NCBI RefSeq assembly: GCF_008330225.1
Contig: NZ_CP042466.1
Coordinates: forward strand, 3,094,001-3,158,000
Length of the DNA: 64,000 nucleotides
DNA from: Geobacter sp. FeAm09
GTDB lineage: Bacteria; Desulfobacterota; Desulfuromonadia; Geobacterales; Pseudopelobacteraceae
Direction of reading: 5' to 3'
How positions within the stretch are numbered: the stretch's first letter is position 1; each line of letters opens with the position of its first letter. Made by a program: the position numbers and the translations under genes. Below, piece after piece: positions 17,367 through 51,845 of this stretch. The notes beneath the pieces were generated by a model. The model did no database searches. It saw nothing but the letters and a program-made list of their open reading frames with translations, and was not told where the DNA came from.

Positions 17367-18986
17367 TTACGTCACCTTGAACTGGCTGACCATGCGCTGC
17401 AACTCCTCCGACATGGCCGACAGGCTCTTGGCCGCTTCGGCGGTCTCTCCCGCGCCTCGTGACGTTCTTTGCACGACGGCGGTTATCTGCATCATGTTGC
17501 TGCTGATCTCGCCGGTCGTGGCGGTCTGTTCTTCCGCCGCGGTGGCGATCTGGTTGGCCTGGGTGGTAACGGCGGTGATCTGCTCCAGAATATCCTCAAG
17601 CGCCCTCCCCGAACGGCCGGCCTCCTGGGTTCCCCGCTCGACCTCGCTGTTGCCCTCTTCCATGGCGGAGACGGCGCTTCTGGTCTCGTTCTGGATGGAC
17701 TTGATCATGTCCGAGATCTCTTTGGTTGCGCGGGTCGTCCGCTCGGCAAGCGCCCGGACCTCATCGGCGACAACGGCAAAACCGCGCCCCTGCTCGCCGG
17801 CACGGGCCGCTTCGATGGCGGCGTTCAAGGCCAGAAGATTCGTCTGGTCGGCGATATCTTCGATGGTCCCGACGATGGCGCCGATCTGGTCGGAGCGTGA
17901 GCCAAGGGATTCGACGGTCTTAGCCGCGCTTTTGACGCGTTCCGCTATCGAGCCCATGACGGCAACCGTCGCCTGCACCACGCCGGAGCCCTCCACGGCG
18001 GCATCGTTGGCGCGCTGGGCGCTCTCGGCCGCCAGATGGCAGTTGTGGGCAATATCGTTGGAGGTCGCGGCCATCTCCTCGCCGGCGGTCGCGACGGTGC
18101 TCGCCTGGGCCACCACCTCCTCGGAGCCTTCCGCCATCAGGTGCGCCGTGCTCATGAGCTGGGTGGAAGCCGAAGCGACCTTGCTGGCATCGGTGACGAG
18201 TTGCAGCATGATGTCCTGGAACCTGCCGACAAAGTCGTTGAAATGGGCGCACAGTTGCCCCAGTTCATCCCTGCTCTCGTACGCGACGCGGCGGGTCAGG
18301 TCCCCGTCGGCGATATGGGTAATGGAAGCGACGATCTCGCCCAGAGGCCGCCTGATGCTCCGGGTGATGGCCAGGGCGGTCAGGAAGCTCAGGACGAGGG
18401 CCACGGCCCCAAGGCCATACATCGCCGTCATGGCCGTCTTGCCGGCATCCTTGGCGCTCGCCACGCGCAGGTCCACCCGCTTTTCGTAAAAACCGAGCAA
18501 GGCGTTGGCGGCCTGGGTCGTCCGCCTGATTGCCGCCTCCCCCTCGCCGTTCATCAGGGTTTTGAACTGGGGGCCGTCACTGGCCAGGGCCGCCGCCGTA
18601 AGCTTCTTGTTGACCTCTATCTCGGCGTCGAGCGCCTGCTTGAGTTCCCCGAGCAGTTTCTTGCCATCGGGGGTCTTGGTGTTTTTATCGACAATGTCCA
18701 TATTCTCGCGATATGTTTTCCGGTATTCCTCGATCCGGGCGCTGAGTTTTTCCCGATCCGCGGGGGTATCGGCCAGGATCAGCCCCTTGATGGCTTCATC
18801 GATATTCTTGAGGCTCAGTTGCACCTTTGCGGTCCTGTCGCTCAGGTCGCTGACCCGGTTGACGTTTTCGAGCTGGTCGGCACTCTTGTAGAGACCGTTG
18901 ACCGCCGTGGCGATCACGATGACCAGCAAGAGCGAACCAATACAAAATCCCGTTTGCAGACGGGTTCCAATAGTCAGATTCTTCAT
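17367..18986 (-). CDS. Methyl-accepting chemotaxis protein
   Basis: The 539-residue receptor has a first membrane segment (about residues 12-32), a four-helix-bundle periplasmic domain (about 35-185), a second membrane segment (about 190-212), a HAMP domain ([22 protein letters not shown]) and a long signalling coiled coil. The hairpin tip is [20 protein letters not shown], followed by [19 protein letters not shown] 18986 has AAGGAGG before it. It is the last gene of the operon behind the GEMM riboswitch. The ligand is unknown. Confidence 0.93.
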
Positions 18987-19104: not shown

Positions 19105-20331
19105 TCACTCCGCCCCCAAGTGCCAGTTGAAGGCCTTTCTCTGGCAGTCCAGCACCGACAGGAGCGGGATGCCCAGCACCTCGAAGCATTCGGCCGCCTC
19201 GCCGAACTCGTTCGCCTCCAGCATCCTGGCCAGGGAGAGGAGCACCGTCATCTCCCCTTTGCGGTCCGCAAGGGCGTTGCGGATGTCGTCGGAGAGCCCC
19301 AGCCCGGACACCACCTCGTCCACGGGAATCTCGTACACCTCTTTCAGCACCGAGAGGATGCCCACCATGAACGCTTCGTCGGGGGAACAGCTCCCGACGC
19401 GCGGCGGCGTCCGGGCCAGCTCTTCCATGAAGGTGGCGCGGGCCACCGCCAGGTGCATGACCGGGTTGTCGGCGCCCTGGCGGCCGTCGCCGGCAAAGAG
19501 CGCTATCTGCACCCACCGCTTGAGCTGCTGCCGGCCGATGATGGTCAGGGCGTGGCGGATGGTGCGGATCTTCTCGTGCAGGCCGACGGACACCGAGTTG
19601 ACCAGCATGAGGAGTTTGTAGACCAGGGCCGGGTTTTCCTTGAAGGTGGCCTCGATCTCGTCGGTCTCGGCGCCGCTGGACAGTTGCTGCATGAGGGTGA
19701 GGAAGCCGGAGAGGGCGTTTCGTACCCGTTGTTTCTGGACCAGGGTGGGACGGGCGAAGAAGTATCCTTGGAACAGTTCCATGCCCAGGCTGCGGCAGCG
19801 CAGGAAGACGCCCCGGGTTTCCACCTTTTCGGCCAGCAGCCTGACCGGGTAGCGCCGCAGGCGCTCCACCATGGCGGGGAGTTGGCCGAGGGGGGTCCTG
19901 ACCAGGTCGATCTTGACCACGTCCACCAGGCCGTCGTAGAGAGGCTCGAAGGCCGGGCTGTACTCGTGGTCGTCCAGGACCAGCCGGTAGCCCCGTGATT
20001 TGAGCGCCCGGCACCGTTTGACGATCTCCGGGTGGGGTTCGACGGTTTCCAGCAGTTCCAGCCCGATGCGCTCGGGGGGGAGCAGTTCGATGACGTCGCT
20101 CATGAGGAGTTCGGTATCCACGTTGATAAAGCCGTGCTGCCCCCCCAGGAGCGCTTCGATGCCCATGGCGGAGACGGTGGCGACGATTACCTGGGAACTG
20201 GCCCGCAGGGAGCTCGAGAACCGGGCGGACGCGATCGATTCCGCCGACCTGAAGAGCAGTTCGAAGGCCTCGACCTCCTCCCGCACGTTCAGGATCGGCT
20301 GCCGGCCAATCAGATATGCTTCGTCGTACAT
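19105..20331 (-). CDS. EAL-HDOD (YuxH-like) signalling protein
   Basis: The 408-residue protein has an N-terminal EAL-like domain (about 1-200) and a C-terminal HDOD domain (about 205-405). The EAL signature is altered: AFELLFR stands where EALLR is expected, and DDHEYS where DDFG is expected, so c-di-GMP hydrolysis is unlikely and a binding or scaffold role is more plausible. The HDOD part shows LVYKLLMLVNS and IRTIRHALTIIGRQQLKRW. GGAGG precedes ATG 20331. It lies between cheW and an MCP in one operon, which suggests control of motility or taxis output. Confidence 0.85.
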   Translation of the reverse strand: MYDEAYLIGRQPILNVREEVEAFELLFRSAESIASARFSSSLRASSQVIVATVSAMGIEALLGGQHGFINVDTELLMSDVIELLPPERIGLELLETVEPHPEIVKRCRALKSRGYRLVLDDHEYSPAFEPLYDGLVDVVKIDLVRTPLGQLPAMVERLRRYPVRLLAEKVETRGVFLRCRSLGMELFQGYFFARPTLVQKQRVRNALSGFLTLMQQLSSGAETDEIEATFKENPALVYKLLMLVNSVSVGLHEKIRTIRHALTIIGRQQLKRWVQIALFAGDGRQGADNPVMHLAVARATFMEELARTPPRVGSCSPDEAFMVGILSVLKEVYEIPVDEVVSGLGLSDDIRNALADRKGEMTVLLSLARMLEANEFGEAAECFEVLGIPLLSVLDCQRKAFNWHLGAE

Positions 20332-20356: not shown

Positions 20357-20851
20357 TCAGCACTCGCCGAGGTACTCGCGCTCGGTCCGGGAGAGCATTT
20401 TGTCGGGGTCGAGCAGGATGAGCATGCGGTCGGCGCGGTTGACGACGCCGACGATGAATTCCTGTTCCATGCCGCCGCCGGTCACGCTGGGGGGCGGCTG
20501 GATCTCGCTGCCGGAGATGCGGATCACCTCCGCCACCGAGTCCACAATGAAGCCGGTCAGCGTACCGGCGATGTCGATGACGATGATCCGGGTCTGGCTG
20601 TCGCTGGCCGTCTCGGCCAGCCCGAACCGTTTGCGCATGGACATGATCGGGATCACCTTGCCCCGCAGGTTGATGATCCCCTCCACGTAGGGAGGGGTGT
20701 TGGGCATGTGGGTGATGGCGGTCATGCGGATGATCTCCCGCACCTTCAGGACCTCCACCCCGTACTCCTCGTTGAGGATGGTGAAGCTGACCAACTGGGC
20801 CAACTCACCCACTCCGCCGCCCCCTGCCACCGGTACCAGTGCGTTCGACAT
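20357..20851 (-). CDS. cheW: Chemotaxis coupling protein CheW
   Basis: The 164-residue protein couples receptors to CheA. It shows the typical order: LVSFTILNEEYGVEVLKVREI, TAITHMPNTPPYVEGIINLRG, KVIPIMSMRKRFG, VIDIAGTLTGFIVDSV, and a late DKMLS. ATG 20851 follows AAAGGAGAAGG; the longer upstream frame lacks support. The gene sits between two receptor genes and an EAL-HDOD gene, all minus strand with short gaps. No cheA is visible in the window. Confidence 0.95.
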   Translation of the reverse strand: MSNALVPVAGGGGVGELAQLVSFTILNEEYGVEVLKVREIIRMTAITHMPNTPPYVEGIINLRGKVIPIMSMRKRFGLAETASDSQTRIIVIDIAGTLTGFIVDSVAEVIRISGSEIQPPPSVTGGGMEQEFIVGVVNRADRMLILLDPDKMLSRTEREYLGEC

Positions 20852-20888: not shown

Positions 20889-22514
20889 CTAAGCGAGCTT
20901 GAATTTAGCGACAATTTCCTTCAATTCCACGGCCAGCTTCGACAGCCCGCTGGCAGACGCCGACGTTTCCTGGGCGCCCTGGGCGGTCTGTTGCACAACC
21001 TGGCTCATCTGATGGATGTTATTACTGATTTCATTGGTTGTGGCGGTCTGCTCCTCGGCGGCGGTGGCGATCTGGCTCACCTGCATCGTCACCGCGTTGA
21101 CCTGGTCGAGTATGGCCTGGAGCGCCGCGCCCGACCTGGCCGCCTCGGCGGAACCGCTCTCGACCTCGCGCACCCCTTCCTCCATGATGCCGACGGCGCC
21201 TTTGGTTTCGCTCTGGATGCTTTTGATCATGTCGCTGATCTCTTTGGTGGCTTTGGTCGTGCGCTCTGCCAACGCCCTGACCTCATCGGCTACCACCGCG
21301 AAACCGCGCCCCTGATCGCCGGCCCTGGCCGCTTCGATAGCGGCGTTGAGCGCGAGGAGGTTGGTCTGGTCAGCAATGTCCTCAATGGTGCCGACAATCG
21401 CGCCGATCTGGTCCGAGCGCGCCCCGAGGGTGTCAACGGTCCGCGCCGAAGCCTGGACCTTCTCGGCAATTCTGCCCATGACATCCACGGTGGACTTTAC
21501 GATACCCGCCCCTTCGATGGCCGAGCTGCTGGCCTGGTGCGCCCCTTCCGCAGCCCTGTTGCAGTTCTGGGCGATGTCGCCGGAGGTCGCCGCCATCTCT
21601 TCTCCGGCCGTGGCCACCGTGCCGGCTTGGGCTGCGACCTCTTCGGAGGCCGTGGCCATCTGCTCGGATGCGGCATGCAGCTGTGTGGCGGCGGAGGCCA
21701 CTCGATCGGAGGTACCGGCCAGATGGCCAATAATGCTTTGCAGATTCTCGACCATCAGCCTGGCCGATCCATTGAGCTGCCCGATTTCATCCTTGCGGTC
21801 AACGGCAACGACGACATTCAGGTTTCCATCCGCGATCAGGCGGTTGACCCTCACCGCCTCGGCAAGAGGCGCGGTGATGCTGAGGGTGATGACGAAACCG
21901 ATCAGGCCTGCGGCGCACAGGGAAACCACGAGGGTTGCAATCATGATCCCTTCAGCCCCCTTGTAGGTTTTCTCCACATCATCGCCTGCCTTGACCAGTT
22001 CCCTGGCCTGGTATTCGATCATCTTGCCCACTGCGTCGAAGTAGGCCTTTTGCAACGGCCGAAGCGTCGTGATCAGGGCCTGCCCCGCCTCTGCCTTGTT
22101 ATCCGCTTCGATCTGGGAGATGATCTCCTTTTGGGCCTGAGCGTAGGCGGCCCGGCTCTCCCTGATCGCCTGCAGCATGGCCTTTCCTTCACTACCGGTG
22201 ATCGTCCTGGCAAGCTTTTCCAAACAGTTCGTGACCGCTTCCCGGGACGCGTCGATCCGCTGGAGCTCCTTTTTGATCTCGGCGGGATCGCTGAGGATGA
22301 CGGCGTTCCGCAGGGAACGGGCCACCACGTTGATGTGGTTGTTGATCTCATTCAGGAGAACCGCCTTGGGCCACCGGTCGTCCGTAATGACGTCAACCTT
22401 TTTGTTCATGCGGCCGAAGCTGGTCATGGCGATCCCGCTGATCACGACCATGAGCAGAAGCATCACCGAAAATCCCAAAGCCAGACGGGTACCGATCTTA
22501 AGATTCGAGAACAT
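20889..22514 (-). CDS. Methyl-accepting chemotaxis protein, first gene behind the GEMM riboswitch
   Basis: The 541-residue receptor begins [20 protein letters not shown] and has a membrane segment, a four-helix-bundle sensor (about 35-185), a second membrane segment (about 190-212) and a HAMP domain ([16 protein letters not shown]). The signalling domain has tip [20 protein letters not shown]. Its 5' leader of about 280 nt carries a cyclic-dinucleotide aptamer and a terminator, so its transcription should respond to second messenger level. It is about 85% alike in its signalling part to the MCP at 17367 by eye. Confidence 0.93.
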
Positions 22515-22605: not shown

Positions 22606-22640
22606 AAAAAAAGGCCCAACCTTTACGCAAAGGTGGGCCT
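22606..22640 (-). terminator. Riboswitch-controlled terminator upstream of the MCP operon
   Basis: On the minus strand GGCCCACCTTTGCGTAAAGG, TTGGGCC and seven Ts form a strong hairpin. It lies between the GEMM aptamer and the MCP start at 22514, so it is the expression platform rather than a gene end. An additional perfect hairpin CACAATAA-TCAGGC-TTATTGTG (22645-22666) separates it from the aptamer. Confidence 0.9.
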
Positions 22641-22661
22641 TGTCACAATAAGCCTGATTAT

Positions 22662-22760
22662 TGTGTCACTTCGGCGGCCCCTCTATCCAACACCATGTTG
22701 GACAGGTAGCTTTGCGTCGCCAGGTCACCCTGGTTTTGCCTCTTCGATGAGCTTAACTAA
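22662..22760 (-). ncRNA. GEMM (cyclic di-GMP-I/cGAMP class) riboswitch
   Basis: The minus strand shows the signature of GEMM-I aptamers: GGCAAAACC, a short stem CCAGG-GTGA-CCTGG with a GNRA loop, the near-invariant GACGCAAAGC, a second stem TCCAAC-ATGGT-GTTGGA, then GGGGCCGCCGA closing the fold. In Geobacter-type bacteria such elements sense c-di-GMP or the 3',3'-cGAMP variant. I cannot decide which without an alignment of the ligand-contact purine in the first strand. It controls the MCP-cheW-EAL/HDOD-MCP operon. Confidence 0.9.
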
Positions 22761-22799
22761 CCAATAGAGAATACATTATGAAAATTTCGAAAGCAAAAT

Positions 22800-22828
22800 T
22801 GTATACCACTAATCTGCGGGGCAATCAA
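22800..22828 (-). promoter_or_regulatory. Candidate sigma-70 promoter of the riboswitch operon
   Basis: On the minus strand TTGATT (22828-22823) is followed after exactly 17 nt by TATACA (22805-22800). This would start transcription around 22790, just upstream of the GEMM aptamer. Confidence 0.6.
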
Positions 22829-35144: not shown

Positions 35145-35287
35145 TCGCCCGGACGAAGCGGAGAGCCGCGGGATGTGCCGGCGTAGGGGCTTCGGCAGCG
35201 TGGCGGGAACAGGACATAAAGCCGGGCGGAACCAAGAGATTGTGCCTTGGATGACGCGTGGCTTTATGCTATCATGCACCATCCCCC

Positions 35288-36520
35288 ATGTTCAGAAAAA
35301 TCTCCACAATTCTCGTGCCGGCGGCCGTTCTCTTCGCCGCCTGGATCACCGTCTTCCAGATCCCCCAGCTGCCCCCTGAGCAGCAGGGCCTGGTGCCGCT
35401 CGCCACCTATCTGCTCTACGTGGCAGGGGTGTTCCTTGCCTGCCATTTCCGGCGGGGGCGGGTCTTCCTCGCCCTGCTGGCCGTGGGGGCCTGCTACCAC
35501 CTCTTCCGCACCCAGCTCGCCCACGGCACCGATACCCCGGAGGCGTGGCTCATCTACCGCGCCCTGACGGTGGTCGTGCCGTTCAATATCCTGCTCGTTG
35601 CCCTGATGCGGGAAAAGGGGTTCTGGACCGTGGCGGGGCGCATGCGCCTGTTGTTCGTCGCCATGCAGATCGGCGCCGTGTGGCTGACGGTGCGCCTCGA
35701 CCAGCATGCCCTGTGGGTCGCCCTGACGCGGCCCATTGTCCACTGGCCGGCCCTCGAGCGCTTCGCCATGCCGCAACTGAGCCTGATCCTGATCCTCCTG
35801 GCGGCCGGCATTGCCGTGCGGCGGGCCGTTTCCCTCGGCTCTCCCATCGAGGGGGGCGTGTTCGCCAGCTGCGTCACCCTCTTCGTGCTGTTCCGGTGGA
35901 TGTGGTCCCCCCATGTGCCGGAGACCTTCTGCGCCGCCGCCGCCCTCATCCTGATCATGGCCGTCATCCAGGATTCCTACAACATGGCGTTCCGCGACGA
36001 CCTCACCGGCCTCCTCTCCCGGCGGGTGCTCAACGAGCAGCTGCCCGGCCTGGGGAGCCGGTACGCCATCGCCATGGTGGATGTGGACCATTTCAAGAAC
36101 TTCAACGACAGCTACGGCCACGATGTGGGGGATCAGGTGCTCAAGATGGTGGGGGCACGCCTGATGAACATGACGGGCGGCGGTTCGCCGTTCCGCTACG
36201 GCGGCGAGGAGTTCACGGTGCTGTTTCCCGGCAAGAGCGCCAAGGAAGCGCTCCCCCATCTGGAACGGCTCCGCCAGACCATTGCCGATTACCGTATGAC
36301 GCTGCGCGGCGAGGACCGCCCCAAGGACGAGGAGCGGGGCAAAAGCCGCCGTTCCAACTCGCGCAGGGCCGGTGAAGTCTCGGTGACGGTCAGCATCGGC
36401 GTGGCCGAAGCGGGGGGACGGCAGACAGCGCCTCAGGAGGTGCTCAAGGCGGCCGACGGCGCGCTTTACAAGGCAAAGAACAGGGGCCGGAACCAGGTCT
36501 GCCTCGGGGGAGGCAGATGA
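35288..36520 (+). CDS. Membrane-bound diguanylate cyclase (GGDEF)
   Basis: The 410-residue protein has six or seven hydrophobic segments in its first 230 residues and a C-terminal GGDEF domain (about 240-405). The active-site motif RYGGEEF is intact, and VDVDHFKNFNDSYGH carries substrate-binding residues. No RxxD inhibitory site is seen five residues upstream. About 25 basic and charged residues are inserted before the last strand (GEDRPKDEERGKSRR). It should make c-di-GMP, which links it to the GEMM riboswitch in this window. Confidence 0.9.
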   Translation: MFRKISTILVPAAVLFAAWITVFQIPQLPPEQQGLVPLATYLLYVAGVFLACHFRRGRVFLALLAVGACYHLFRTQLAHGTDTPEAWLIYRALTVVVPFNILLVALMREKGFWTVAGRMRLLFVAMQIGAVWLTVRLDQHALWVALTRPIVHWPALERFAMPQLSLILILLAAGIAVRRAVSLGSPIEGGVFASCVTLFVLFRWMWSPHVPETFCAAAALILIMAVIQDSYNMAFRDDLTGLLSRRVLNEQLPGLGSRYAIAMVDVDHFKNFNDSYGHDVGDQVLKMVGARLMNMTGGGSPFRYGGEEFTVLFPGKSAKEALPHLERLRQTIADYRMTLRGEDRPKDEERGKSRRSNSRRAGEVSVTVSIGVAEAGGRQTAPQEVLKAADGALYKAKNRGRNQVCLGGGR

Positions 36521-50669: not shown

Positions 50670-51845
50670 CTATTCGGCTACCATCATGAGGCGGTCGCGC
50701 CCGCCGGCCTTGGCGGCGAACAAGGCGTCATCCACCTTCTTCAGGCATTCGTCGATGCTCATCCCCGGCCTGAACGCGCCGAGCCCCACGCTCATGGTCG
50801 TCGTGATCTTCCGTCCCTCCCACGGCACGGCCGTTTTCCGCATATTGACCAGGAGTTTCTCCGCCACCGTCCGGGCCTTGGGCAGGTCGGTCTCCGGGAG
50901 GATGACCAGAAACTCCTCCCCTCCCCAGCGCCCGCAGAAATCCCCGGCGCGGACATGGGTGCGCAGGACCTCGGCGATGGCCCTGAGTACGCGGTCGCCG
51001 GCCATGTGCCCGTAGCCGTCGTTGATGGCCTTGAAATGGTCCAGGTCGCAGAGCAGGATGGAAAAGTGTTTGTGGTACCTCTCGGAACGGCTCTTTTCCG
51101 ACTCCAGCCGGGCCATGATCTCCCAGCGGTTGGCAAGGCCGGTGAGGAGGTCGGTCCGGGCCGAGAATTCCAGCCGGGCATTGAGCTCCATGAGCTGGGA
51201 CTGGTAGCCGTCGCTGATGGAAACGATCTTGTTGAAGCGCCGCACGAGCTTGGCATGCCTGCCCACGACCCGCTCCAGTTCGGACGTGAGCGGGTTGCCG
51301 GCGGCGGCGCTCTCCTGGAGCAGGGTGCGCAGCTCCTTGAGCGTCTCGTCCTCGGCCGGCTTCCGGGCGGCCGGCGCGGCAGGCCCGGCGGACGGCTCCG
51401 CAGACGCCGGCAGGTCCGGGAACTTCTCCTTGTGCTGCCACGCCCCCAGCTGCCGGGTGGTGGACTTGATGCACTCGGGGCAGATCCCGTGGCTGAACAT
51501 GATCTCCGCATGGGTGCCGAAATAGGTTTCCAGGCGCTGCCAATAGTCGTTGTCGGTACGGATGTTCTTGCAATAGATGCAGAGCGGCAGGGCGACGTCC
51601 TTGAGCTGGCGGTACTTGTAGGTGGTGTCCTCGATCTGCTTCATCATCTCCCGGAGCTGCATCTGGTAGGTGTCGCTGATGACCAGCGTCTTGTTCAGCT
51701 TGCGCAGGAGCGCGCGGTAGCCCTCGGCAAGGGCGCCGTACTCGGCCATCAGGTCCGGTGGCGGGGAGGAGGACTCGGCAAGGATGCGGCCGGCCCGCTC
51801 CAGGGTGGGGTCCGTCGCCGCTATTTTCGTTTTTTTGCGGGCCAT
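50670..51845 (-). CDS. siaD: SiaD-like diguanylate cyclase with an internal zinc-finger-like segment
   Basis: The 391-residue cytoplasmic protein has a predicted coiled coil, a Cys-rich region (about residues 85-130, LCIYCKNIRTDNDYWQRLE, then SHGICPEC), a second coiled coil and a GGDEF domain (about 230-388). GRWGGEEF is intact and RAGD five residues upstream is an inhibitory I-site. It follows siaC by 9 nt. In Pseudomonas SiaC activates SiaD directly. The zinc-finger-like insert may be a lineage-specific control point. Confidence 0.85.
   Translation of the reverse strand: MARKKTKIAATDPTLERAGRILAESSSPPPDLMAEYGALAEGYRALLRKLNKTLVISDTYQMQLREMMKQIEDTTYKYRQLKDVALPLCIYCKNIRTDNDYWQRLETYFGTHAEIMFSHGICPECIKSTTRQLGAWQHKEKFPDLPASAEPSAGPAAPAARKPAEDETLKELRTLLQESAAAGNPLTSELERVVGRHAKLVRRFNKIVSISDGYQSQLMELNARLEFSARTDLLTGLANRWEIMARLESEKSRSERYHKHFSILLCDLDHFKAINDGYGHMAGDRVLRAIAEVLRTHVRAGDFCGRWGGEEFLVILPETDLPKARTVAEKLLVNMRKTAVPWEGRKITTTMSVGLGAFRPGMSIDECLKKVDDALFAAKAGGRDRLMMVAE

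Follow-up and report, generated by a model that had tools for sequence, protein, structure and literature searches.

A probable c-di-GMP OFF riboswitch before a chemotaxis operon in a Geobacter relative, with a terminator that appears complementary to the core of its aptamer

The window (the whole stretch of 64,000 nucleotides analyzed here) carries a c-di-GMP-I (GEMM-I) riboswitch on the minus strand upstream of a run of chemotaxis genes. Pfam identified, on the same strand, MCP1 (4HB-HAMP-MCP signal, 20889..22514), CheW (20357..20851), an EAL-HDOD protein (19105..20331) whose EAL match covers profile positions 88-236 of 236 only, and MCP2 (4HB-HAMP-MCP signal, 17367..18986), a putative operon member; MCP1 was also assessed by synteny and by its homologues elsewhere, and the CheW and MCP2 scans used frames slightly longer than the listed starts. 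This agrees with the gene content of MCP, CheW, EAL+HDOD, and MCP given in a preliminary description, which also named two diguanylate cyclases, identified here as GGDEF proteins at 35258-36520 (+) and 50670-51845 (-). The genes slyX and ovoA lie upstream of the riboswitch. A candidate sigma-70-like promoter (22800..22828, minus strand) consists of TTGATT (22828-22823) and TATACA (22805-22800) separated by 17 nt, where these hexamers had been described before; the -10 box and 17-nt spacer are kept by eye in the L019 orthologue, a conservation that falls short of proving promoter function. The ovoA gene (25198-23090, minus strand), upstream of slyX, encodes an OvoA-type 5-histidylcysteine sulfoxide synthase (TIGR04344, TIGR04345) and is kept in the related genomes G001, G002, and G004. 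Elsewhere in the window, an IS200-like Y1 transposase gene (14221-13277, minus strand) adjoins a 108-residue frame (14628-14302) with no Pfam match.

Rfam gave two matches above threshold in the whole window, a cobalamin riboswitch at 241-40 (minus strand, 113 bits) and the c-di-GMP-I aptamer at 22670..22750 (minus strand), with orthologues at L029, L031, and L036. The RF01051 match spans model positions 1-87 of 87 and scores 58.0 bits, where the gathering threshold is 35 (E 9.8e-9 when both strands of the window are searched), bearing out the GEMM riboswitch proposed earlier, and all the motifs named for it are there: GGCAAAACC, a stem with the GTGA cap that represents the GNRA tetraloop of the class, GACGCAAAGC, a second stem, and GGGGCCGCCGA. 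In Vc2 numbering, which we take to place G20 at 22740, A47 at 22713, and C92 at 22674, the ligand contacts are G, A, and C, respectively. Position 22740 is model position 11 and the first base of GGCAAA, A47 falls within the conserved core GACGCAAAGC (22709..22718), which is the target of the antisense terminator described below, and G21-C22 match the Rfam consensus.

The nearest named relative found was Oryzomonas japonica Red96 (L019), placed by NCBI in Geobacteraceae, with an EAL-HDOD protein 88% identical, and the genus of the window genome is taken to be Oryzomonas. G001, G002, and G004 share the gene order ovoA-slyX-riboswitch-cheW-EAL/HDOD, so that the riboswitch occupies the same place in four genomes, and MCP1 stands between it and cheW in the window genome only. 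The nearest MCP1 homologues in the other genomes are located elsewhere (55-68%), suggesting that the gene was gained in the window genome or lost from the others; G001 and G002 have a full-length MCP2. The switch upstream of an EAL-HDOD chemotaxis operon described previously is upheld, and the target common to the four genomes is cheW-EAL/HDOD rather than an MCP, since MCP1 intervenes in just one of them. It is quite possible, if not the favored reading, that the riboswitch serves mainly cheW and the EAL-HDOD gene, with the MCPs as passengers or under promoters of their own: it directly precedes cheW in G001, G002, and G004, G004 retains only a 65-residue MCP2 match, and beyond the genus EAL-HDOD genes follow such aptamers at L174 and L242 (Pfam) and, by eye, at L163. 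In the window genome, however, MCP1 comes first after the terminator and transcripts from the named promoter must pass the switch. Outside the genus HD-domain genes also follow L155 and L216 (Pfam), and further EAL-HDOD or HD cases were read by eye, the downstream genes having been inspected for a part of the loci.

The expression platform lies between the aptamer and MCP1 on the minus strand. The terminator hairpin AAGGCCCACCTTTGCGTAAAGGTTGGGCCTT (22611..22641, -18.2 kcal/mol) starts 28 nt past the aptamer, uses none of its strands, and runs into a U tract (22606..22612) that ends 92 nt before the MCP start codon (ATG at 22514), the distance given originally. The aptamer-terminator gap folds into a bridging hairpin, CACAATAA-N6-TTATTGTG (22644..22665), in which two of eight pairs are changed on both sides across six close sequences; two pairs of the terminator are likewise changed on both sides, and over the whole structure the count of five such pairs was reached in 66 of 500 shuffles, a weak signal. 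The terminator contains two antisense segments, GGCCC (22639-22635) and CTTTGCGT (22632-22625). When the growing transcript was folded, a competing structure appeared in which GGGCC of the aptamer 3' strand (22676..22680) pairs, as the 5' partner in the first antiterminator helix, with GGCCC, followed by the CACAAUAA hairpin as a bridge and then by ACGCAAAG:CUUUGCGU, joining the aptamer core with its A47 equivalent to the terminator arm and loop. The aptamer-platform interaction was -1.3 kcal/mol before the terminator, -4.3 at 14 nt, -9.4 at 18 nt, -8.4 at 22 nt, -1.6 at 27 nt, and -1.3 with the terminator complete. In ligand-free folding, the antiterminator thus wins over one stretch and the terminator is more stable later, the complete hairpin folding as terminator at -54.6 compared to the -46.1 of the immediately preceding antiterminator state; an OFF model therefore needs kinetic control. 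The architecture computed for the window, a downstream terminator opposed by an antiterminator whose formation uses up the aptamer, is that of an OFF switch.

The recurrence of terminators antisense to the aptamer core was evaluated in a genus set of six genomes and a family set of 76. For loci beyond the genus, selection relied on a model built from 13 Oryzomonas aptamers, giving 25 and then 60 more among the matches listed, and the wider set comprised 182 loci. A terminator was found in 36 of 38 loci (none in L168 and L172), and 33 were retained after L159, L166, and L177 were also left out; from the wider set, 96 of 100 downstream-terminator loci were used (hairpin under -8 kcal/mol), including 83 G20, 7 A20, and 6 C20. 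The two terminator finders disagree at some loci, e.g., L005, L007, L036, and L041, and position counts use the second. For L006, which has two possible terminators, the nearer, hand-chosen one entered the 33-locus tests and the core comparison with control terminators, and the farther one the 96-locus, GCC-anchored, and position-count analyses, while L176 was trimmed by hand for the 33-locus run and shuffle tests, for the same core comparison, and for the 27-pair permutation test. The window and eleven long loci supplied 37 control terminators, after one antisense copy of an aptamer had been dropped from a first set of 38.

Complementary runs of at least 8 between an aptamer and its own terminator occurred in 13 of the 33 loci versus 5 of 1221 pairings with the controls; runs of at least 7 (16/33 versus 156/1221) are no rarity. 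In the wider set, own runs reached at least 8 in 31, at least 7 in 38, and fewer than 7 in 58 of the 96 loci, and none of 5000 permutations attained the mean or the count of this set, kinship being ignored here as in all the other counts; owing to the similarity of related terminators, 14% of pairings within this set reach 8. Dinucleotide shuffling gave a z of -2.0 and a p of 0.046 for the window and p values under 0.05 in 11 of 33 loci, with 22 above, and the antisense signal of the window alone is modest. Runs in L005, L006, and L007 of the window genome stayed below 7. The antisense segments do not vary in the window clade, where the departing L007 lacks the core pairing, and the clade consequently offers no covariation.

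More distant loci revealed that two core segments are used, a mid-core segment, GACGCAAAG, in the window clade, L155, L157, and L162, and a 5' core segment with G20, CGAAAAGGCA, e.g., in L170, L173, and L217. Matched changes were found as aptamer GAAAAGGCA with UGCCUUUUC, as aptamer GAAAUGGCA with terminator UGCCAUUUC in L174, L216, L221, L223, L232, and L242 (not in L171 or L239), and as aptamer GGCACAAAG with terminator CUUUGUG in L241. The GAAAUGGCA/UGCCAUUUC position held 20 A-U and 7 U-A combinations among 37 GCC-anchored loci (Fisher p 0.0009, with kinship ignored and the anchoring picked after the pattern was seen). An initial covariation scheme that matched aptamer CC/UU/CU to terminator GG/AA/AG did little better than permuted pairs and was discarded, and a permutation test of 3'-strand:terminator pairing over 27 distinct pairs gave a weak result (850/20000). 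An origin of the core complementarity by chance or from repeats, leaving a plain 3'-strand:terminator switch, fits the abundance of ACGCAAAG repeats in many relatives and the modest window p value of 0.046. It is nonetheless unlikely given the matched changes across two core segments, the restriction of the ACGCAAAG pattern to riboswitches in the four of six Oryzomonas genomes that match it, and the run of 8 against GACGCAAAGC in the window compared to runs never above 5 in the 37 control terminators. When 395 phylum genomes, irrespective of whether they carry such aptamers, were scanned for the combined core and anti-core pattern, the window genome and one chance-like match came up, an uninformative outcome. 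Interspersed ACGCAAAG or TTTGCGT repeats were observed in G013, G063, and other relatives, with many matches in some genomes.

The architecture of GEMM-I riboswitches was compared across the genus. The window genome (4,099,068 bases, single contig) has 18 RF01051 aptamers above threshold, nine G20 and nine A20, and the genus has 97 (including two matches under the gathering score), of which 54 are A20, 42 G20, and one U20, so that A or G occupies position 20 in 96. In 47 of the 54 A20 aptamers, including eight of nine in the window genome, the terminator 5' arm begins inside the aptamer 3' strand, the ON architecture, which is also present in 23 of the 42 G20 aptamers; a downstream terminator follows five A20 aptamers, four of them in G005 (L030, L035, L040, and L123). 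A rule equating A20 with ON and G20 with OFF was rejected on these counts. The same counts make a c-di-GMP ON switch on the plan of the Geobacter cGAMP riboswitches, where binding prevents termination and raises chemotaxis gene expression, conceivable for the window, but this is improbable and was set aside as the terminator is wholly downstream, its 5' arm starting beyond the aptamer without an aptamer strand, and the competing helices undo the aptamer. Separately, the four G005 loci display, behind the A20 aptamer, a AAGAGGGC-like stretch that by eye could pair with the terminator arm, and are possible cGAMP OFF switches. L039 (G002:C2:254256-254331) and L047 (G001:C2:57270-57345) combine a cGAMP-type backbone with natural G20 and ON architecture, and L001 and L004 (G000:C1:2391292-2391521, minus strand) are tandem G20 aptamers 65 nt apart before a secreted-looking open frame.

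The ligand of the window aptamer is predicted to be c-di-GMP, because G20 and C92 are canonical and the A20G change alone makes c-di-GMP the preferred ligand of a cGAMP aptamer from Geobacter (PMC6456294, excerpt). The A at position 20 of the GEMM-Ib (cGAMP) subclass is replaced by G in the window, and G20, A47, and C92 are the pocket residues of Vibrio cholerae Vc2, also named in PMC9049102, consistent with the A47 numbering and a likeness that concerns the aptamer alone. That the aptamer senses 3',3'-cGAMP and couples taxis with the circuit for extracellular electron transfer is very unlikely: nine A20 aptamers occur in the genome and binding of both dinucleotides is described for some GEMM-I aptamers (PMC9262584, PMC12285248, in excerpt), but G20 and C92, on which cGAMP was set aside, are of the c-di-GMP kind and the adjoining G21-C22 are of the consensus type. 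Aligning the ligand-contact purine with both subclasses, as proposed in the preliminary description, points to its c-di-GMP side and away from cGAMP, and its tie to the electron-transfer state finds no support as a direct link, since the cGAMP-type aptamers of the window genome form a separate A20 group, mostly of ON architecture.

The window platform is probably a c-di-GMP transcriptional OFF switch on the chemotaxis operon acting through an antisense terminator. The aptamer, the terminator, their complementarity, and its recurrence in relatives are computed; for the ligand, sign, kinetics, and operon read-through, we infer the following course. At low c-di-GMP, the initial terminator segment (~18-22 nt) would pair back with the aptamer while RNA polymerase is synthesizing it, forming GGGCC:GGCCC, the hairpin bridge, and ACGCAAAG:CUUUGCGU across the ligand-binding core, such that the terminator would form too late and the operon would be read. 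At high c-di-GMP, the bound aptamer would keep its core and 3' strand, leaving the terminator 5' half free to pair with its own 3' half and stop transcription at ~22606, with less MCP, CheW, and EAL-HDOD protein as the expected outcome. The OFF sign is predicted because the antiterminator occupies bases required for ligand binding.

Aptamers of the window type (GACGCAAAGCTACCTGTCC ... GAGGGGCCGCCGA) were identified at nine loci of the genus, L005, L006, L007, and L008 in the window genome and L031, L029, L036, L041, and L116 in four others; none was found in G003 (83% complete). The next gene codes for an MCP at L007, L008, and L041 (Pfam), for CheW followed by EAL/HDOD at L031, L029, and L036, for a CheA-like Hpt/kinase-dimer protein at L116, for a HAMP-PAS sensor at L006, and for an fn3 protein at L005. 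Chemotaxis genes (MCP, CheW-EAL/HDOD, or CheA) therefore stand behind seven of the nine, a coherent target set. In Oryzomonas, the U92 aptamers L009, L043, L044, and L105 precede a 121-residue response regulator and cheX, as scanned at L009 for both genes, the other regulator copies being nearly identical. G20 with U92 in place of C92 is a natural GEMM-I variant seen at 45 of the 182 loci, examples being L009 (G000:C1:3871145-3871225, minus strand) and the three others just named as well as L170, L173, L251, and others. In Vc2, C92 forms a pair with a ligand base, and U92 aptamers might prefer adenine there (cGAMP, with flipped sense) or wobble with c-di-GMP.

Among known systems, Cd1 from the flagellar operon of Clostridioides difficile resembles the window in its c-di-GMP-I aptamer, downstream terminator (T + H), OFF sign, and motility target, and its antiterminator (T + A + H) takes an aptamer strand by the same logic (PMC9262584, excerpt). 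The Cd1 antiterminator refolds with time, which may be likened to the later, more stable terminator of the window (PMC9262584, in part). Cd1 differs in belonging to another lineage, and the excerpted text of PMC9262584 names strand A and leaves a pairing of the ACGCAAAG-core kind unstated, the likeness being one of description and not of sequence. The Geobacter GEMM-Ib cGAMP riboswitches (e.g., pgcA and pilM) share the aptamer family and transcriptional control, and their class is present in the window genome; they differ in A20, in a terminator that uses aptamer strand A and so gives an ON switch, as in the ON architecture of pilM (PMC9262584, excerpt), and in targets that include cytochromes and pilus genes (PMC6456294, PMC9262584, both in part).

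The aptamer is an ordinary RF01051 member, and the expression platform appears to be a new version of a familiar type. In the best matches of a literature search by titles and abstract openings, no such platform and no GEMM-controlled chemotaxis regulon was found for the family, for which tables of the 2015 cGAMP founding papers may list some of the loci, and the words riboswitch and GEMM are absent from a study of Geobacter chemotaxis genomics (PMC2577667). The chances seem evenly balanced that the window represents a shared kind of OFF riboswitch, reached at least twice, in which the terminator, being antisense to the ligand-binding core of its aptamer, vies with the ligand for one set of bases, and that in Oryzomonas c-di-GMP would thereby silence a scattered chemotaxis regulon (MCP, CheW-EAL/HDOD, CheA, and possibly CheY-CheX), with cGAMP switches in the same genome turning other genes on. 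Chemotaxis control would then be set apart from the electron-transfer circuit described for cGAMP. The sign of c-di-GMP control over chemotaxis in a Geobacter relative becomes directly testable, and a terminator antisense to the sensor core would provide a simple design rule by which ON or OFF may be predicted from sequence.
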